Source: Melioribacteraceae bacterium | Lineage (GTDB): Bacteria > Bacteroidota > Ignavibacteria > Ignavibacteriales > Melioribacteraceae | Direction: 5' to 3' | DNA: 53,574 bases | Assembly: GCA_016342755.1 (NCBI GenBank) | Contig: JAEINS010000029.1 | Location: 1 to 53,574 of the forward strand | Shown here: positions 33,827 to 42,657 of the stretch, one piece after another | Layout of the letters: every line of letters begins with the position of its first letter | Position numbering within the stretch: the first letter of the stretch is position 1 | Program-made: the position numbers and the translations under genes | The notes under the pieces: model-generated | Told to the model about the DNA's origin: nothing | The model's database searches: none | Seen by the model: only the letters and a program-made list of their open reading frames with translations

Positions 33827-34897
33827 TTAGAACATGTATCCTACACCAAGATTAAATAAATCAGTTTTTTCATCACCGAGTTCGATTTTGTACTGACTAT
33901 AATCGGCTTTGAAAACAATATTATCAATTGGTTTAATGTTTACCCCGACAGTTACAATAGTTCGGTGATATTGTTTTTCTAAATCACCGCCAAAAACGGT
34001 TGAAGCCGCAGTGTTATAATCTGTATACCTAACAAATGGAATAATTTCCCCTTTGCAGTTTAATAAAGAGCCAATGTTGTAACCAAAATCTACATAATAA
34101 CCATTCGAAGTTTCAACCTCTCCTTTATCATAAGAAATATTTCCAAATTCAAAATCGGCATAAATATTATTTGCACGATATTGTGCATGAACTTCTAACA
34201 AACCAATTGCGTTGTTAGTTGAATCTGCTGTTGCATTATTATATGTATATGAAAAACCAGCTTTCAACCCTTTAATTCCGTGATAATCAATTCTTCCGTT
34301 ATATAATAAATCTTCAGCATTAGATTTATAACCTTTTTGCCTTCCATCTCTGATACCAGATTTTGCCGAAAAATTCTCAGCATTTAATCCTTCCATTACT
34401 GTTAATTTGTAATCAAAACCTTTATATTTTCCATAAACTGCAACACCATTTCCAAACCATGTTGTTGGAATTATATATTTATTGTACTCTGGTCTTTCAA
34501 CTCCTAAAAATGTAGGTGGTTCATGATATTCATTTATTAGACCAACTGAAGGTAAAATTACACCAGCCTGGAAACCAAATACATCTGAATGATGATAATT
34601 AATATATGCCTGTTCTAATTCTAACTCCCCTTTTTCTTCACCCTTTACAAAATTATGTTCAAGTTCAATTTCTGAATTGAATGACCATTTTTCGCTAAAA
34701 GTATGTGAATAAAACATTACGAATCTATGAAAATCCAAAGTTTTCTTTGAATCACCATCTTCTGGTTTGGAATAGTTGTAATGAAGTTCTCCATATCCGC
34801 CAACTGTAGTAGTAGGTTCAAAAAATTCATCTTGAGCATTAATTGATACAACTACAAAAATCATAATTACGAGTAAAAGTGTAAGTTTGTTAAACAT
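33827..34897 (-). CDS. Outer-membrane beta-barrel protein (porin-like)
   Basis: The 356-residue protein has a signal peptide (LLLVIMIFVVVSINAQ) and then amphipathic strands throughout: TVGGYGELHYNYSK, LDFHRFVMFYSHTFSEKWSF, NEYHEPPTFLGVERPEYNKY, and a final strand ending GVGYMF with the terminal aromatic typical of outer-membrane proteins. It resembles the phosphate-selective porin/Opr-like group common in Bacteroidota and Chlorobi. It is the first gene of a three-gene cassette with the FMN-binding and membrane proteins. The cargo is unknown. AAGGAT precedes the ATG. Confidence 0.82.
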   Translation of the reverse strand: MFNKLTLLLVIMIFVVVSINAQDEFFEPTTTVGGYGELHYNYSKPEDGDSKKTLDFHRFVMFYSHTFSEKWSFNSEIELEHNFVKGEEKGELELEQAYINYHHSDVFGFQAGVILPSVGLINEYHEPPTFLGVERPEYNKYIIPTTWFGNGVAVYGKYKGFDYKLTVMEGLNAENFSAKSGIRDGRQKGYKSNAEDLLYNGRIDYHGIKGLKAGFSYTYNNATADSTNNAIGLLEVHAQYRANNIYADFEFGNISYDKGEVETSNGYYVDFGYNIGSLLNCKGEIIPFVRYTDYNTAASTVFGGDLEKQYHRTIVTVGVNIKPIDNIVFKADYSQYKIELGDEKTDLFNLGVGYMF

Positions 34898-35025
34898 GTT
34901 GATTCATATCCTTATTTTTATTTAGCATAAACGTTGTTTTTATTTAGACATAATATAAATACTATTTAGATTCTTTCCAAATAAGTCTCGGAAATAATTT
35001 ATTTTTAATTCACTCAATTTATTTC

Positions 35026-35057
35026 TTGACAATCCAATCTTGAATTGCTTATCTTTG
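35026..35057 (+). promoter_or_regulatory. Bacteroidota-type promoter of the trp operon
   Basis: TTG (35026-35028, in CTTGACA) is followed after 21 bp by TATCTTTG (35050-35057), matching the -33 TTTG and -7 TAnnTTTG elements of the Bacteroidota primary sigma factor. The leader-peptide ATG is only 7 bp beyond, so transcription should start at or within a few bases of it. The rest of 34898-35025 shows nothing recognisable apart from AT-rich sequence. Confidence 0.75.
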
Positions 35058-35064
35058 TGTTACT

Positions 35065-35142
35065 ATGTATAAGAACACCGGAAGAAATATCGAAATCAGA
35101 AAAACTACTTGGTGGTGGCATACAACTATAGATAAAGTGTAG
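35065..35142 (+). CDS. trpL: Trp operon leader peptide (three consecutive Trp codons)
   Basis: A 25-codon frame begins at ATG 35065 and ends at TAG 35140-35142. Its C-terminal half reads KTTWWWHTTIDKV, with TGG TGG TGG at 35110-35118. Tandem Trp codons in a short frame directly ahead of trpE, followed by alternative hairpins and a U-tract, are the hallmark of ribosome-mediated attenuation. Ribosomes starved of charged tRNA-Trp would stall here. No ribosome-binding site is possible if transcription starts where the promoter suggests, so translation is probably leaderless. Confidence 0.93.
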   Translation: MYKNTGRNIEIRKTTWWWHTTIDKV

Positions 35143-35180
35143 AATTGTGAAATAACTAAGTTTTTGATGCCCTTCTTAGT
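35107..35180 (+). promoter_or_regulatory. Trp attenuator: protector and antiterminator segments
   Basis: Segment 1, ACTTGGT (35107-35113), covers the first Trp codons. It pairs with segment 2, ACTAAGT (35155-35161), over seven bases with one G-U. Segment 2 alternatively pairs perfectly with segment 3, CTTAGT (35175-35180). The 2:3 helix uses bases needed by the terminator at 35170-35196. A ribosome stalled on the TGG codons would mask segment 1 and free segment 2 to form the antiterminator. Rapid translation to the TAG would favour termination. Confidence 0.8.
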
Positions 35181-35202
35181 GAAATACTTTGAAGGGTTTT
35201 TT
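35170..35202 (+). terminator. Trp attenuator terminator
   Basis: CCCTTC (35170-35175) pairs with GAAGGG (35191-35196). An inner AGT/ACT stem closes a five-base loop across a symmetric TT/TT bulge. Six T (35197-35202) follow immediately. It lies 28 bp after the leader stop and 17 bp before the trpE ATG. Confidence 0.92.
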
Positions 35203-35219
35203 ATTAAATAGGAATAACA

Positions 35220-36701
35220 ATGAATTTTGAAACATTTAAAGAGCTCTCTAAAGATTACAATGTAATACCAGTTTTTGAAAAAATTACTGCCGATATGTTA
35301 ACTCCGGTACTTGTATATCTTAAAATTAGAGAAAAAGATAAAAACTGTTTTCTTCTTGAATCAGTTGAAGGAATTGGCCGTCTCGCGCGTTATTCATTTA
35401 TTGGCAAAAATCCTTATAAACTATTTTATAATTATCAGGATAAACTTCACATTAAATCTGCGGAGAAAGAAGAATCCATTGATATAAATATTTTTGATTT
35501 TTTAAGTAATGAAATTGAAAACAGTTCTCATCCGGCATTAGAAGATCTCCCCTATTTTACCGGCGGGATTGTTGGTTATCTTGGTTACGAAAATGTTTCA
35601 GCAATTGAGGATGTAATTAAATTCAACCAATCTGATAGTTTAGAAAACCCTGATTCCATTTTTGGCGTATATAAAACAATTCTGGCTTTCGATCATTATA
35701 AACATCAGCTAATTATAATTTCTAATGTATTTGTTGATGAAAATACAGAACTGGAAAAATCTTATAACGAAGCAAAAGAAACAATAAAACAGCTAAAATC
35801 TGAATTAAAATCGCAAGTAGAATTTATTTCGGATTTCAAATTAGAGGCTCAAATAGATGATCCCTATATTGATAAGGATAAGTTCTTTGAGTTAGTTAAA
35901 AAATGCAAACAGAATATTTTTGACGGAGATGTATTTCAAATTGTACTTTCAAAAAGGTTTGATACTGAATACACAGGCGATTTGCTTAATGTTTATCGTG
36001 CTTTAAGAATGATTAATCCTTCGCCATATATGTATTTTCTGGAGTATGAAAATGATTTTACAATTATAGGAACTTCACCTGAAGATCTTTTAAAAGTGAA
36101 AGATAAAAATGCTACAATTTTACCAATTGCCGGAACACGCAGACGGGGAAAAACAGATGAAGAAGATAAAGAACTTGAGCTTGATTTAATAAATGATCCT
36201 AAAGAATTGGCTGAACATAATATGCTGATAGATTTAGCAAGAAACGATTTAGGACGCGTTTGTGAATATGATTCTGTTCATCTATCGGAAAACATGAATA
36301 TAACACGCTTTTCACATGTTATGCATATTGTATCAAGAGTTGAAGGTAAGCTGGAAGATTCTAAAAATTGTATTGATGCTTTAAAAGCCAGTTATCCGGC
36401 TGGAACTGTTACCGGAGCACCTAAAATTAGAGCTATACAGCTACTAAATGAATATGAAGATGAAAAACGCAATGTTTATGCCGGTGCCGTGGGTTACATA
36501 GATTTCAGTGGTAATCTTGATATGTGTATAGCAATAAGAACAATGTTTGCTAAGGACAAAAAAATATACTGGCAGGCCGGAGCCGGTATTGTAGCTGATA
36601 GTAAACCTAAACTTGAATTAAAAGAGATTAAAAATAAATCAGCCGCTCTAAGAAGCGCGTTAAAATATGCTGAGGTAATTGATGAAAATATTGATGATTG
36701 A
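35220..36701 (+). CDS. trpE: Anthranilate synthase component I
   Basis: This 493-residue enzyme converts chorismate and ammonia to anthranilate. The N-terminal part has the tryptophan feedback site LLESVEGIGRLARYSFIG. The chorismate-binding domain has FQIVLSKRF, TSPEDLLKV, PIAGTRRRGKT, HNMLIDLARNDLGRV, RFSHVMHIVSRVEG, YPAGTVTGAPKIRAI and WQAGAGIVADSKP. Length and motifs are canonical, so allosteric inhibition by Trp is expected. AGGAATAACA precedes the ATG. It overlaps trpG by 20 bp. Confidence 0.97.
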   Translation: MNFETFKELSKDYNVIPVFEKITADMLTPVLVYLKIREKDKNCFLLESVEGIGRLARYSFIGKNPYKLFYNYQDKLHIKSAEKEESIDINIFDFLSNEIENSSHPALEDLPYFTGGIVGYLGYENVSAIEDVIKFNQSDSLENPDSIFGVYKTILAFDHYKHQLIIISNVFVDENTELEKSYNEAKETIKQLKSELKSQVEFISDFKLEAQIDDPYIDKDKFFELVKKCKQNIFDGDVFQIVLSKRFDTEYTGDLLNVYRALRMINPSPYMYFLEYENDFTIIGTSPEDLLKVKDKNATILPIAGTRRRGKTDEEDKELELDLINDPKELAEHNMLIDLARNDLGRVCEYDSVHLSENMNITRFSHVMHIVSRVEGKLEDSKNCIDALKASYPAGTVTGAPKIRAIQLLNEYEDEKRNVYAGAVGYIDFSGNLDMCIAIRTMFAKDKKIYWQAGAGIVADSKPKLELKEIKNKSAALRSALKYAEVIDENIDD

Positions 36702-37248
36702 TAATTATGATTCCTTTACTTTCAATCTGGTACAGTTGATTGGAAAGTTTACTGAGGATATAATTGTTAAACGCAACGACAGGATAACTTTAGAAGAGAT
36801 TAAAAAAATTGCTCCCGATAAAATTGTAATTTCTCCGGGGCCCGGGAAACCGGAGGGCTCTAATATTTCGCTTGATGTAATTAAAACACTTGGAGAAAAA
36901 ACTCCAATATTAGGAGTGTGCCTGGGACATCAGGGAATTGGAATTACTTTTGGAGGAAAAATTGTTAGTGCTCCGACTCTTATGCATGGAAAGATTTCAA
37001 ATATTGTACACGACAATAAAACCATCTATAAAGATATTCCTCAAAAATTTGAAGGAGCAAGATACCATTCATTAGTTATAGACAGAGAAACTCTTCCGCA
37101 GGTATTCCAAATAAGCTCGGAAACTGAGGATGGTGTAATAATGGGTATCAGACATAAAGAATTACCAATTGAAGGAATTCAGTTTCACCCGGAATCAATA
37201 TTAACAAAAGTTGGCGATAAACTAATAGAGAACTGGTTAAAATTATGA
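36682..37248 (+). CDS. trpG: Anthranilate synthase component II (glutamine amidotransferase)
   Basis: The 188-residue class I amidotransferase supplies ammonia to TrpE. It begins MKILMIDNYDSFTFNLVQ, has the oxyanion-loop SPGPGKPEGS, the nucleophile Cys in GVCLGHQGIG, and the His-Glu pair in GIQFHPESILT. The ATG at 36682 follows GAGG at 36672-36675 inside the 3' end of trpE, giving translational coupling. It overlaps trpD by 4 bp. It could also serve folate synthesis if no separate PabA exists. Confidence 0.96.
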   Translation: MKILMIDNYDSFTFNLVQLIGKFTEDIIVKRNDRITLEEIKKIAPDKIVISPGPGKPEGSNISLDVIKTLGEKTPILGVCLGHQGIGITFGGKIVSAPTLMHGKISNIVHDNKTIYKDIPQKFEGARYHSLVIDRETLPQVFQISSETEDGVIMGIRHKELPIEGIQFHPESILTKVGDKLIENWLKL

Positions 37249-38255
37249 TCAAAAAAGAAATTGAAAAAGTTCTAAATAGAGATAACTTATCTATAGAAGA
37301 ATCATATGAAGTTATGCAAAAAATTATGGGCGGTGAAATTAATGATTCGCAAATAGCGGCTTTATTAATTGCTCTTAAAGGCAAAGGAGAATCATCCCAA
37401 GAAATAGCCGGTTTTGCAAAAGCAATGCGCGATAGAAGTATTAAAATTGAATCAGACTCAGAAACTACAATTGATGTTTGTGGAACCGGTGGCGACAATT
37501 CCGGAACATTTAATATATCAACCGCTGCTTCATTTGTTGTTGCCGGAGCCGGTGTAAAGGTTGCGAAGCATGGGAACAGGTCTATATCAAGCTTAAGCGG
37601 CAGTGCCGATGTTTTAACAGAGCTTGGTATAAGTATAAACCTTTCTCCTGAAGTTTCGGAAAAAGCAATTGACGAAATTGGAATTGCCTTTTTATTCGCG
37701 CCAAATTATCATCCTGCCATGAAGCATGTAGCAAAAGTTCGTAAAGAATTAGGTATGAAAACTATTTTTAATATGCTTGGACCTTTAACAAATCCCGCAA
37801 ACACAAAAAAACAGTTAATTGGAACTTTTAATGAAACGGCTTCTCAAAAAATGTCAAAAGCCGTAGAATATCTGAATATGAAAAAAGTTTGTTTTGTATG
37901 TACAGACAATAAATACGATGAAATCTTACTTTCCGGCACTACAAAAGTTTTTGAATTTGGAAATGATAAGGTTGATCAATACAATTTAACCTCAGAGAAT
38001 TTTGGATTAGGAGACATTGAAATTTCAAATTTAAGAGGAAATACATCATCGGAAAATGCGGAAATAATTTTGAACATACTAAAAGAAAAAGAAAAAAGTG
38101 AGCGTTCAAGAGTTGTTATAGCTAACGCTGCTATGGGATTATACTGTTCTGGAATTTCAAATGATTTAAAAGAATGTTACTATTTAGCTGAAGAATCAAT
38201 TGAATCCGGGAAAGCCTATGAAAAACTGGCAAAACTTTCTGAAGTTGGCGAATAA
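37245..38255 (+). CDS. trpD: Anthranilate phosphoribosyltransferase
   Basis: The 336-residue enzyme joins anthranilate to PRPP. The diagnostic VCGTGGDNSGTFNISTAASF loop binds pyrophosphate, followed by KHGNRSISSLSGSADVLTELG and GPLTNPANTKKQLIGTF. Length is normal and it is not fused to TrpG as in some bacteria. Start and stop overlap the neighbouring genes by 4 bp (ATGA) and 1 bp (TAATG). Confidence 0.97.
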   Translation: MIKKEIEKVLNRDNLSIEESYEVMQKIMGGEINDSQIAALLIALKGKGESSQEIAGFAKAMRDRSIKIESDSETTIDVCGTGGDNSGTFNISTAASFVVAGAGVKVAKHGNRSISSLSGSADVLTELGISINLSPEVSEKAIDEIGIAFLFAPNYHPAMKHVAKVRKELGMKTIFNMLGPLTNPANTKKQLIGTFNETASQKMSKAVEYLNMKKVCFVCTDNKYDEILLSGTTKVFEFGNDKVDQYNLTSENFGLGDIEISNLRGNTSSENAEIILNILKEKEKSERSRVVIANAAMGLYCSGISNDLKECYYLAEESIESGKAYEKLAKLSEVGE

Positions 38256-39049
38256 TGAATATACTTGAAGAAATTGTTGAAGTAAAGAAACAGGAAGTTG
38301 CGGCACTAAAAAGGGATTTTACTCTTTCAAGATTTGAAGATAGTCAGTTTTTTGATCAGAAAAATTTGGGATTTAAAAAATCTCTATCATCCAATAATGT
38401 AATCTCAATTATTGCAGAAATAAAAAAAGCGAGTCCTTCTAAAGGTATTATTAAATCGGACTTTAATCATATAGATATTGCTGAACTATATATGGAATTT
38501 GGAGCAAACGCTGTTTCCGTTTTAACTGATCAGAATTTCTTTAAAGGAAATATCACTTACTTAAATGATATTGCAAAAATCAAATCGGTTCCTCTTCTTA
38601 GAAAAGATTTTATAATAAATGAATTTCAGGTGTTTGAGGCAAAATCGAATGGTGCTGACGCGGTTTTATTAATTTCAGAAATACTCTCAGAATCTCAAAT
38701 TAAAGAGCTTAGTTTTTGTGCCAAAGAATTAGGATTATTTGCATTGCTCGAACTTCACTCCGTAAAACAAATTTCAAAAATTGATTTTGGCTTGAATGAC
38801 ATAATTGGAATTAACAATAGAAATCTAGAAAACTTTAAGACAGATTTAAATACAACATTAGAAATAGAAAAATTGCTGCCGGAAGATATTGTTGTTGTCG
38901 CGGAAAGTGGAATTTCAAACCGGGAGGATTTTGATTTATTGAAAACTGGCAAAACTGATGCTGTTCTGGTAGGCGAACATTTAATGAGATCAAATAGTAT
39001 TGGTGATTCACTAAAGCAAATGAAAGAATGGTGCAGACGTGAAAATTAA
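38255..39049 (+). CDS. trpC: Indole-3-glycerol phosphate synthase
   Basis: This 264-residue TIM-barrel enzyme closes the indole ring. Motifs are IIAEIKKASPSKGII, AVSVLTDQNFFKG, PLLRKDFIINEFQVFEAKSNGADAVLLI, IGINNRNLENFKTDL and VVAESGISNREDF. It is a stand-alone TrpC, not the TrpC-TrpF fusion of enterobacteria. Its end overlaps the next gene by 11 bp. Confidence 0.97.
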   Translation: MNILEEIVEVKKQEVAALKRDFTLSRFEDSQFFDQKNLGFKKSLSSNNVISIIAEIKKASPSKGIIKSDFNHIDIAELYMEFGANAVSVLTDQNFFKGNITYLNDIAKIKSVPLLRKDFIINEFQVFEAKSNGADAVLLISEILSESQIKELSFCAKELGLFALLELHSVKQISKIDFGLNDIIGINNRNLENFKTDLNTTLEIEKLLPEDIVVVAESGISNREDFDLLKTGKTDAVLVGEHLMRSNSIGDSLKQMKEWCRREN

Positions 39050-40664
39050 AATTTGCGGTATCACAAATATTGAAGATGCTCTTTTTAGCTCTAATGCTGG
39101 TGCTGATGCTTTAGGATTTATATTTTATAAAAAGAGCAAACGGTTTGTTGAATATGAAAAGGCAAAAGAAATAATTGCTTTATTACCAGAACGTATAATT
39201 AAAATTGGTGTTTTTGTAAATGAAGATAATGATTTTATAAATAAAATTTCTGCCGAAATTGGATTAAATGAAATACAATTACACGGTGACGAATCACAAG
39301 CCGATGCATCAAAAATTAAACTGCCGGTTATAAAAGCTTTTCGTGTTGATGACGAATTTGATTATTCTGTACTAGATGAATTTAAAGACTATTCAATCCT
39401 TTTGGATTCGAAATCGAATGCTGAATATGGAGGAACCGGATTGACTTTTAATTGGGAACTTATTCCGAAGGTGTTGAAAAAAAATATTATCTTAGCAGGT
39501 GGAATCTCTATAAATAATATTGAAAAGGTATATAAAAACATTACTCCTTACATGGTTGATCTGTCTTCTTCGTTAGAATCAGAACCAGGTAAAAAAGATC
39601 ATTATAAAATTGAACAGTTTTTCACTAAAGTAAATGGATTGGCTAATATGTTAATTTTAATGAAACATGAATCATCTAGAGAAGCTATAGAATTTGTAAA
39701 AGCCAGGATTATTGATCATGGCTGTATACCGCATGAAATTCTGGGAGAATTGAATATAGCAATTGGTATTACCGGACCAACAAATGTTTTACGCGAAGAA
39801 GATTTTATTTTCCTTGAAGAAGTTAATGATGTAATCAGACTTACGAAAAAATACAAGCTTGTAAGCCGCCAAATGAAATCTGAAGATACAGTAATCTTTG
39901 TAGACGGGAAATTGGTTGGAACCCGTGAATTAACAATTATAGCCGGACCATGCTCAGTTGAATCGAAAGATAAAGTTTTTGAAATTGCAGAATTGCTTGC
40001 GGAATCCGGGATACAGTTTTTTAGAGCCGGTGCTTATAAACCAAGATCAAGCCCATATTATTTTCAAGGATTAAAAGATGAAGGATTACAATATCTGGAT
40101 GATGTAAAAAAACAATTTGGTTTAAAGATAGTAACCGAGGTTCTTAATCAGAAAACAATTGGTTCCGTGGCAGAAGTTGCCGATATATTACAGATAGGCG
40201 CAAGAAATATGCAGAATTTTTCTCTTTTAGAAGACGTTGGTAAAACAGGAAAACCAGTTTTATTAAAGCGCGGGATTTCTGCTTCTGTTGAAGATTTATT
40301 GTTGAGTGCTGAATATATTGCTGCCCAACAAAACATGAATATTATTTTATGCGAACGCGGAATTCGGACTTTTGAAACTTCTTCGCGCAATACACTAGAT
40401 CTTAATTCAGTTCCTGTGATAAAGAAAAATACACATCTGCCAATTATTGTTGATCCTTCGCATGGATGCGGGATTTCTGAAAATGTTCCTAATATGGCAC
40501 TTGCATCAATTGCTGCCGGTGCTCACGGACTTTTAGTAGAAGTTCATCAAAATCCAAATGAAGCATATTCTGATGGACAACAATCTCTTTCAATGGAATC
40601 GTTTAAAGAATTACTAAAAAAAATAAAACAATTAGCTCCAATTGTTGATAAGGAGTTTTCCTGA
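39039..40664 (+). CDS. trpF: Fusion of phosphoribosylanthranilate isomerase and type I-beta DAHP synthase
   Basis: The 541-residue protein starts at GTG inside trpC. Residues 1-200 are TrpF ([13 protein letters not shown] with catalytic Cys6, [30 protein letters not shown]). Residues 204-275 match the ferredoxin-like regulatory domain of Thermotoga-type DAHP synthase ([25 protein letters not shown]). Residues about 280-541 are the DAHP synthase barrel ([77 protein letters not shown]). No stop separates the halves. One polypeptide should thus catalyse the first shikimate step and the third step after chorismate. An internal ATG at 39648 could also yield a separate synthase. Confidence 0.95.
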
Positions 40665-41857
40665 TGACAACAAAGTATAATGCCCCGGATATTAAAGGGA
40701 AATATGGAATATACGGCGGTAAATTTGTTCCAGAAACACTTATTGCGGCACTTAATGAACTTGAAAATATTTACAATGAATCTATTAAATCGTCTGAGTT
40801 TTTAACAGAACTTGAAGAATTACAAGTTGAGTATAATGGACGCCCTACTCCGTTAAGTTTTGCCAATAGATTAACTGAGTATTACGGGAAAGCAAAAATT
40901 TATTTAAAGCGTGAAGATTTATGTCATACCGGCGCACACAAGATAAATAACACACTTGGACAAATTCTTTTAGCTAAACGACTAGGTAAAACCCGCATTA
41001 TAGCTGAAACCGGTGCTGGTCAGCATGGAGTTGCAACAGCAACTGTTTGTGCTAAGTTCGGATTAAAATGTATTGTATACATGGGTGAATTGGATGTTGA
41101 AAGACAATCGTTAAATGTATTTAGAATGAAGATGCTTGGAGCTGAAGTAATACCGGTTACTTCGGGTAATAAAACTCTAAAAGACGCTACCAATGAAGCC
41201 ATTAGAGACTGGGTTTCCAATGTAACTGATACTTATTATATAATCGGCTCTGTTGTGGGACCACATCCATATCCTATGATTGTAAGAGACTTTCAGGCTG
41301 TTATAGGAAATGAAACCAAAGAACAAATTTTAAAGAAAGAAAATAAATACCCGGATTATATTTTAGCATGTGTTGGTGGCGGCTCAAATGCAATGGGCAT
41401 TTTTTATCCATTTATTGATTTACCTACAAGGCTAATTGGAATTGAAGCTGCCGGACACGGATTGGATACTGAAGACCATTGTGCAAGTATAACTTTAGGT
41501 GATAATGGAATTTTCCAGGGTATGATGACCAAATTACTGCAAGATGAAAACGGTCAGGTAAATGAAGTTTACTCAATTTCAGCCGGACTTGATTATCCGG
41601 GAGTTGGTCCGGAACATTGTTACCTTAATGAAATAAAGAATGCTGAATATAGCTCTATAACTGACAAAGAAGCTTTGGAAGCTGTTAAACTACTTTCAAA
41701 ATATGAAGGAATTTTACCGGCTCTTGAAACAGCGCATGCAGTTGCATATCTCGAGAAGCTAATGCCCGCAACCAATAAAGATGAAATAGTTGTTGTAAAC
41801 CTTAGCGGCAGAGGCGATAAAGATTTAAATACAATTATAAAAGAAATCAACCTTTAG
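40664..41857 (+). CDS. trpB: Tryptophan synthase beta subunit
   Basis: The 397-residue PLP enzyme condenses indole with serine. It has the PLP lysine in [29 protein letters not shown], the glycine-rich phosphate loop [10 protein letters not shown] and the GPEHCYLNE stretch, all of the TrpB1 type that pairs with TrpA. Its start overlaps the preceding stop by 1 bp (TGATG context), and trpA follows after 8 bp. Confidence 0.97.
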
Positions 41858-41865
41858 GAATTATT

Positions 41866-42657
41866 ATGTCTTTTATTTCTGATAATATTAAAAAAATAAA
41901 TGCTGAAAATAAAAAATGTTTAACAGTGTTTTTAACAGCAGGTTTTCCGGCAAAAGATAAATTTGTTGATTTAGCTTTAAATGTTTTTGATGCCGGAGCT
42001 GATATAATTGAAATCGGTGTCCCCTTTAGTGATCCCTTAGCAGACGGACCGGTTATACAGCATTCTTCGCAAACTGCCTTGGATAATGGTGTTACACCGG
42101 AACTAGTCTTTGATTATGTTTTGCAAATAAGAAACAAAACTGATAAACCGATAGTTCTTATGGGTTATTCAAATCCAATATTAAAGTACGGAATTAAAAA
42201 ATACGCGCAAAGAGCTGTTGAGACCGGAGTTAACGGTTTAATTATTCCGGATATACCGCTTGAAGAATATGATGATTTCATTACTGATGATTTCAAAAAT
42301 CTTGATGTTATACTTTTAACTACTCCGACTTCATCTGATGAACGTATTAAAACAATAGATAATAAAAGTAACGGTTTTTTGTATTGTGTTAGTATTGCGG
42401 GAACAACCGGAACAAATAATCAGTTTGGAGAAAAAACATTATCCAATCTTAAAAGAACTTATAACCTTGTCTCAAAAAATAAAATGCAGATAGGCTTTGG
42501 TATATCTACACCTGATGATGTAAAAATGTTTTCACCCTTTTGTGATGGTGTAATTGTCGGCAGTGCTGTTATTAAATCATTATGGAATGAAAAAGATTCA
42601 AAAGATTTCCCAAATACTATAAGTTTAATTAAAAATTTGAGTGCTGCCTGTAAATAA
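41866..42657 (+). CDS. trpA: Tryptophan synthase alpha subunit
   Basis: The 263-residue TIM-barrel subunit cleaves indole-glycerol phosphate to indole. The catalytic region reads IEIGVPFSDPLADGPVIQ. Further motifs are LIIPDIPLEEYDDF, LLTTPTSSDERI and IGFGISTPDDVK. It is the last gene of the operon. A promoter for the next gene lies inside its 3' end. Confidence 0.97.
   Translation: MSFISDNIKKINAENKKCLTVFLTAGFPAKDKFVDLALNVFDAGADIIEIGVPFSDPLADGPVIQHSSQTALDNGVTPELVFDYVLQIRNKTDKPIVLMGYSNPILKYGIKKYAQRAVETGVNGLIIPDIPLEEYDDFITDDFKNLDVILLTTPTSSDERIKTIDNKSNGFLYCVSIAGTTGTNNQFGEKTLSNLKRTYNLVSKNKMQIGFGISTPDDVKMFSPFCDGVIVGSAVIKSLWNEKDSKDFPNTISLIKNLSAACK

Follow-up and report, generated by a model that had tools for sequence, protein, structure and literature searches.

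A probable ribosome-mediated trp attenuator in Melioribacteraceae, with a candidate 3'-arm antiterminator shared by Ignavibacteriales leaders

The window, by which we mean the whole stretch of 53,574 nucleotides analysed here from a Melioribacteraceae bacterium, harbors a trp operon in the order trpEGDC(F-aroF)BA, with a candidate attenuator located 5' of trpE (Table 1). An earlier note on this DNA had described a leader ORF, a protector, an antiterminator and a terminator in front of trpE, and on re-reading the sequence the letters of all these segments were found as given there. Among named TrpE relatives sharing 59-68% identity, the labels are mostly Ignavibacteriales, Ignavibacteria, Melioribacter, Melioribacteraceae, Stygiobacter or 'Bacteroidetes' MAGs, and in a few cases Calditrichia or Chlorobiota, which supports an Ignavibacteriales affiliation; the note had suspected Ignavibacteriota, and NCBI places the Melioribacteraceae in Ignavibacteriota. 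Further along the operon, a single ORF at 39039-40664 joins TrpF (PRAI) to DAHP synthase and its ferredoxin-like domain, so that an attenuator here would extend its control to the first step of aromatic synthesis. Among the 19 other genomes searched for this protein, there is one full-length match, in G010 (it contains one TAA); the two enzymes lie in neighbouring or overlapping stretches in nine, among them G005, where both fall inside a 587-aa open frame and are possibly fused, and in the remaining genomes they are apart or just one of them was seen.

Table 1. Features of the trp leader and operon, in positions of the window.
Feature	Position	Strand	Remarks
Predicted promoter	35026..35057	+	TTGACA (35026-35031), 18 nt, TATCTTTG (35050-35057); 12/12 consensus letters
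Leader peptide ORF, 25 codons + TAG	35065..35142	+	MYKNTGRNIEIRKTTWWWHTTIDKV; TAG 35140-35142; predicted leaderless or nearly so
Segment 1, protector 5' strand	35095..35113	+	35095-35101 with 35162-35168 and 35107-35113 with 35155-35161 in the minimum-energy structure
Three tandem TGG (Trp) codons, proposed sensor	35110..35118	+	WWW read in the sequence
Segment 2 (A), at the leader stop codon, AAAGTGT	35134..35140	+	Complementary to ATACTTT 35184-35190
Protector 3' strand	35155..35168	+	35155-35160 doubles as the proposed antiterminator strand with 35175-35180
Segment 3, terminator 5' arm	35170..35180	+	
Segment 4, inner loop side and 3' arm of the terminator	35184..35196	+	Partner of segment 3 and (order-wide, predicted) of segment 2
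Terminator U tract, six T	35197..35202	+	
trpE, first structural gene	35220..36701	+	Pfam Anth_synt_I_N and Chorismate_bind
trpG, trpD, trpC, trpF-DAHP synthase fusion, trpB, trpA	36679..42657	+	

The leader was compared with those of its relatives. We searched 58 genomes, of which 44 had an orthologue-level TrpE and 42 were used, G025 and G029 being left out for their matches at contig ends; 43 of 72 further trpE loci were added, the others, from distant organisms, being left aside. This yielded 85 trpE upstream regions, counting that of the window, from the order and organisms close to it; they reduce to 70 distinct ones, with the genus represented by the window's genome alone. A strict terminator pattern removed L077 and L084, leaving 68 leaders, and an incomplete trpE removed L107, leaving 67. 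Two leaders, L023 and L069, have a segment A that shares bases with the last Trp codon; A was cut short there in the pairing and folding tests and restored for the alignment.

All 70 distinct regions carry a short ATG-initiated ORF with at least two Trp codons, ending 20-130 nt ahead of the U tract of a terminator whose hairpin has an energy of -12.8 kcal/mol or below. Using regions of up to 330 nt each, we found WWW in short ATG ORFs of 50 of the 70, compared with 0 of 1400 dinucleotide shuffles, and WW in 66 of the 70, compared with 9 of 1400; the four regions lacking WW (L021, L025, L037 and L065) have spaced Trp codons. The Trp-rich ORF and terminator before trpE are not a product of chance. 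The 25-codon frame with three consecutive TGG just before trpE, as read by the earlier note, is indeed there (ATG at 35065, TGG at 35110-35118, trpE at 35220), and its proposal that the reading would fall if relatives lacked tandem Trp codons or compensatory changes was followed up in their leaders, which did not overturn it: short leader ORFs with tandem end-product codons recur in 66 regions. Outside the Trp codons, the leader peptides differ widely except for a [TS]Y pair present in 43 of 68 leaders, although absent from that of the window. Its codons are nearly fixed, ACA TAT or TCA TAT (sharing CATAT) in 43 of 46 occurrences, which points to selection on the RNA letters rather than on the protein, and in many leaders the frequent Thr-Tyr codons, for which a role in sensing Tyr could be imagined, fall in protector strand 1.

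An intrinsic terminator separates the leader ORF from the first gene (35170-35202), with a CCCTTC...GAAGGG stem at 35170-35196 followed by the six T. The fold of 35150-35205 has a z of -3.30, with none of 200 shuffles as good, and the terminator cells of the 67 leaders are 95.0% paired, above all shuffles on all five measures, so the terminator with six U of the earlier note stands. A rule-based terminator scan of 34500-35500, whose rules want a loop of 3-8 nt, returned 0 terminators. The protector of the note was recovered too: ACTTGGT (35107-35113) is complementary to ACTAAGT (35155-35161), and these strands pair at 0.96-0.99 in ribosome-free RNA in the fold of the window. Protector and terminator together make up the fold of 35100-35200 (-26.6 kcal/mol, z -3.93, matched by none of 200 shuffles), and the whole leader, 35060-35205, gives a z of -2.65 (2 of 200). 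In the order, segment 1 lies upstream of the Trp codons and its pairing partner includes A or adjoins it, with a mean duplex energy of -16.1 kcal/mol for its own partner vs -11.0 for foreign partners; 361 of 3350 shuffles are as good, ranging from 0 to 38 of 50 in individual leaders. The protector duplex of the window is weak (-8.7 kcal/mol, 15 of 50 shuffles) and sits past A, not over it.

The antiterminator is where the order seems to part from the textbook arrangement. In most relatives, segment A at the leader stop codon (CTCAGTGA, CCCGGTGA, CCCAGTGA and variants) is complementary to TCACTGAG, TCACCGGG and variants, which belong to the 3' arm of the terminator and the adjoining side of its loop, rather than to the 5' arm. 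With A defined as the top-scoring 8-mer no more than 20 nt from the stop, and defined anew in every permuted control, its score against strand 4 in the 67 leaders is 7.63, compared with 3.93 ± 0.35 (maximum 4.75) in 60 column-permuted controls, and the fraction paired is 0.877, compared with 0.718 ± 0.019. When sought from -12 to +20 nt of the stop-codon end, A ends between -10 and +18 nt of it in 67 of 67. In contrast, the best 8-mer against the terminator 5' arm, sought from 20 nt upstream of the leader stop up to the terminator, scores no better than its controls (5.05 vs 4.53 ± 0.29, maximum 5.24 of 40). The antiterminator proposed by the earlier note (35155-35160 with 35175-35180) is of this 5'-arm kind; its complementarity is real (ACTAAG with CTTAGT), but such a pairing is not conserved across the 67 leaders.

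We also examined a MAFFT alignment of the 67 regions built without structure. The 2:4 pairs are standard in 83.9% of cases, against 28.9-44.9% in six registers slid by one to three columns, and 45 cells have changed on both sides, against 4-14 in the slid registers and 15.2 ± 7.2 in shuffles (0 of 500). Three of five measures exceed all 500 shuffles; pairs with both-side change and further pair types do not rise above them (146 and 162 of 500). Counting compensatory events on the TrpE tree with A fixed gave 33, compared with 0-6 in seven rotated registers, for an A that had itself been chosen by complementarity; with A re-chosen, the null yields as many (35.9 ± 4.7, no excess), and this count was therefore dropped as evidence for 2:4 in favor of the complementarity score and the counts made on the alignment. 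By duplex energy, 52 of the 68 order leaders prefer the 3' arm, two (L038 and L042) the 5' arm and 14 neither, and four further leaders of the same family (L115-L118) all prefer the 3' arm; the same comparison assigns E. coli trpL to the 5' arm (-11.1 vs -5.1 kcal/mol). The E. coli-type pairing of segment 2 with the 5' arm does not hold order-wide, and the order appears to use 1:2 / 2:4 / 3:4 where E. coli uses 1:2 / 2:3 / 3:4. The 2:4 pairing is probably the antiterminator of the order.

Each of the 67 leaders was then folded with the footprint of a ribosome removed. In ribosome-free RNA, A is paired with the leader ORF at a mean of 0.70, and at 0.3 or more in 64 of 67 leaders. With a ribosome stalled at the first Trp codon and a transcript ending before the terminator base, A:4 averages 0.72, exceeds 3:4 in 63 of 67 and reaches at least 0.5 in 55 of 67. 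A ribosome at the stop codon leaves the terminator at 0.6 or above in all 67. Once the transcript is complete, the terminator prevails in spite of stalling in 65 of 67 leaders, in the window and in E. coli trpL, implying that antitermination must be kinetic, since the equilibrium favors the terminator. E. coli trpL put through the same computation gives 0.63-0.69 for 2:1, 0.71 for 2:3 and 0.96-0.97 for 3:4; the pattern of states is alike in the order and in E. coli, and what differs is the partner strand of the antiterminator. Protector, antiterminator and terminator thus come out computationally as exclusive states switched by the ribosome, the antiterminator solely in transcripts ending before the terminator is complete. 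The three exclusive states are a prediction of folding.

The window is a diverged member of this set of leaders. Its A matches the position of the relatives' segment, although the structure-free alignment does not put it into their columns, and in free RNA it is unpaired with segment 1 (0.00), unlike in most relatives. The window's A:4 duplex is weak, its -5.7 kcal/mol being attained in 29 of 100 shuffles, and this leader is one of the 14 among 68 in which neither terminator arm is preferred (-5.8 vs -5.7 kcal/mol). It could be argued that the wiring is classical in this species, with 35155-35160:35175-35180 as a 2:3 antiterminator and the 2:4 of the relatives lost. Besides the lack of a 3'-arm preference, this reading is favored by the existence of the pairing itself, which reaches 0.45-0.72 in stalled folds of transcripts ending before the terminator is complete and is excluded by the protector in free RNA (0.00 against 0.96-0.99), and by the use of the 5' arm in other Bacteroidota lineages, such as all 13 leaders of family f38. 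Against it stand the absence of conservation across the 67 leaders and the position of the pairing. The strand begins 13 nt after the stop codon of the window, and spans nucleotides 13-18 past it, so a ribosome at the stop codon with a footprint of +9 or +12 would not mask it: the pairing stays at 0.89 and 0.81, respectively, and is lost just with +15, and with the shorter footprints it could not tell stalling from completed translation. A ribosome is stated to cover up to 12 nt past the stop codon (excerpt of PMC4833913). As a switch, the antiterminator of the earlier note is not supported, and by itself the stretch 35150-35190 folds no better than chance (z -1.16, 29 of 200 shuffles). We consider the classical wiring of this leader unlikely.

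In a transcript of the window ending at 35191, A:4 forms at 0.24-0.94 under stalling and at 0.00 with the ribosome at the stop codon, for footprints of +9, +12 and +15; when the transcript runs to 35198, every state has the terminator at 1.0 and neither antiterminator pairing (0.00 for both). Being the only one masked by a ribosome at the stop codon with every footprint tried, A:4 is taken as the likelier antiterminator, with the inner pairing in a helping role. In the minimum-energy fold of 35134-35192, A:4 encloses 35155-35160:35175-35180 (-5.5 kcal/mol, z -0.30), a composite no better than shuffles (61 of 200), and the 2:4 of the window may act in this nested form. That 2:4 is the working antiterminator in the exact sequence of the window is a reading we favor modestly.

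The start of the transcript bears on how the ribosome would enter. The predicted promoter of the window places the RNA start near 35061 and the leader ATG at about +5, with 7 nt from the end of TATCTTTG to the ATG. At least 9 of 12 promoter consensus letters are present in 54 of 68 leaders, with the ATG 2-13 nt behind (22 in one). TAnnTTTG is the -7 element of Bacteroidota promoters (excerpt of PMC7366714), which would put the ATG in those 54 regions about 0-10 nt from the RNA start. From the promoter letters, the leader is predicted to be leaderless or nearly so. For comparison, about 3.7% of the 5' UTRs of B. thetaiotaomicron are shorter than 10 nt (same excerpt), and 5.5% of the mRNAs of F. 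psychrophilum are leaderless (excerpt of PMC9723704). A scan for other promoters with a close ATG gave 10 places in the window's own genome and 6 in the control; it recovers this promoter and is otherwise uninformative.

We propose that regulation would proceed as follows. The RNA would start a few bases before the leader ATG, judging from the promoter, and a ribosome could therefore load at its very 5' end. As long as the leader is free of ribosomes, segment 1 would pair with bases at the leader stop codon or beyond it, and the terminator would form. Under scarcity of Trp-tRNA, a ribosome would stall on the Trp codons and break the protector, the freed A would pair with segment 4 before the terminator base emerges, and, with A:4 formed, RNA polymerase would read into trpE. 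When Trp is plentiful, the ribosome would reach the stop codon and sit on A, allowing the terminator 3:4 to form. By comparison across the order, the Trp-rich ORF and the terminator are conserved, together with 2:4 and 3:4 complementarity in which the partners have changed in pairs; we infer that 2:4 would work in this species, that initiation would be leaderless and that the leader would respond to Trp. Ribosome-mediated trp attenuation, as announced in the earlier note, is very probable, given the Trp-rich ORF and terminator in 70 of 70 regions and the masked folds of the 67 leaders. The proposal as a whole, a ribosome-mediated attenuator of the trp operon with a 2:4 antiterminator, is in our judgement quite likely, and we lean towards the existence of an Ignavibacteriales-wide class of trp attenuators defined by a 2:4 antiterminator, an A masked directly by the ribosome that terminates there, and translation from a 5' end with little or no untranslated sequence.

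Two other explanations dispense with this mechanism. The hairpin could be a plain, weakly regulated early terminator, with a peptide that acts in trans or is itself a small functional protein (compare peTrpL of Sinorhizobium). A trp leader peptide acting in trans has been reported in that genus (excerpt of PMC7298713), but the wide variation of the peptides here, the nearly fixed [TS]Y codons with their sign of RNA-level selection, and the conservation of the RNA pairings (2:4 and the terminator) make this very improbable. Less credible still, to the point of being negligible, is that another Trp sensor (T-box, TRAP or riboswitch) runs the terminator and that the ORF is incidental. Nothing was found in favor of such a sensor, the Trp-rich ORF recurs in all 70 regions, and Rfam release 15 gave 0 matches in the window at the gathering threshold; with E values up to 10, the stretch 34950-35300 contained no trp leader or T-box, and one 12.6-bit match (E 8.5) to an unrelated family.

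Textbooks treat attenuation as a standard circuit, and its structure is known mainly from Proteobacteria and some Actinobacteria, and antiterminators are usually drawn trapping the 5' arm, which is made first. A further 84 trpE upstream regions were surveyed: 42 from class members beyond the order, where 44 genomes had a match, and 42 from other classes of the GTDB phylum, comprising the 13 best loci, all of family f38, and one or two hand-chosen per other family. A Trp-rich short ORF with a terminator is present in 12 of the 42 class regions and in 30 of the 42 from other phylum classes (13 of them from f38). In 26 of these 42 non-order leaders segment 2 pairs better with the 5' arm and in 10 with the 3' arm, and six show no preference. 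In the stretch inspected, there is no Trp-rich ORF before trpE in the examined members of class families f6, f10, f18 and f19, or in two members each of f27, f32 and f45. A pattern search for elements of the same shape matched 16 of 38 genomes, the window's own included, with the listed matches all at trpE and 0 in the reversed-pattern control; as the pattern misses many variants, it shows only that there is no second copy of this exact shape.

The leader shares with E. coli trpL a short tandem-Trp ORF, a 1:2 protector, a 3:4 terminator before trpE and a segment 2 beside the stop codon. The antiterminator of trpL is 2:3, on the 5' arm, whereas in the order the 3' arm and loop are involved in 52 of 68 leaders; the E. 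coli trp leader also has a normal 5' UTR, in contrast to the window, where the ATG is predicted at about +5. The order's leader would work like the E. coli attenuator but does not show the 2:3 pairing order-wide. Family f38 and other Bacteroidota (L134-L146, L186, L201 and others) likewise have a Trp-rich leader and terminator before trpE, mostly with classical wiring (the 26 of 42 above), as opposed to the mostly 3'-arm wiring of the order. Candidate trp attenuators of Corynebacterium and Streptomyces resemble that of the window in their double or triple Trp codons, U-tract terminator and position in the operon, and differ in having complementary gGCC-rGCy-GGCC triples; a 3'-arm antiterminator is not described in the excerpt of that work (PMC1262725).

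Leader peptides were described in 2010 as known from Proteobacteria and Actinobacteria only, ermC apart, before the Firmicutes case of that same article (excerpt of PMC2965389). Clues for leader-peptide attenuation before amino-acid operons have since come from Flavobacterium psychrophilum, a member of the same wider group, the wiring not being given in the excerpt (PMC9723704). With this case and the 30 of 42 regions in other phylum classes, the rarity of trp attenuation outside Proteobacteria and Actinobacteria, on which the earlier note had laid weight, turns out to have been overstated. Among open-access titles and the beginnings of abstracts, there was no trp attenuator in Ignavibacteria and no antiterminator trapping the 3' arm, and the main text of PMC8632094 has no word starting with Bacteroid or trp.

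If the 2:4 arrangement is correct, the same logic of attenuation would be carried order-wide by a different RNA topology, next to several neighbouring lineages that look classical, offering a natural series for tracing the rewiring of a kinetic RNA switch; the 2:3-wired relatives would mean that the shared strand was switched during the evolution of the Bacteroidota group. A trap for the 3' arm would have the last few transcribed bases in which to act, and so would test the speed of strand exchange in nascent RNA, while a leader ORF with next to no 5' UTR would couple the loading of ribosomes to the 5' end.

Some observations concern the surroundings of the leader in relatives. In Stygiobacter electus the place taken by the promoter in relatives, immediately 5' of the trp leader, is occupied by a tRNA-Asn (GTT) gene (L053:2730-2802), with which the leader may be cotranscribed. 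A conserved short ORF, approximately M-T-[ND]-x-E-[LI]-x-[FY]-x-[LI]-[ND]-[AS]-...-W-x-x-D-Y-x-Y-S..., stops just upstream of the trp promoter in L004, L005, L008, L012, L026, L030 and L078. On the other side, an extra 85-130 nt or so separate the terminator from trpE in L009, L017, L054, L061, L062, L073, L080 and L107. The stretch of L062 has no inverted repeat beyond a palindrome at the U tract and that of L061 contains one of 12 nt; these extra stretches may be small repeat elements.
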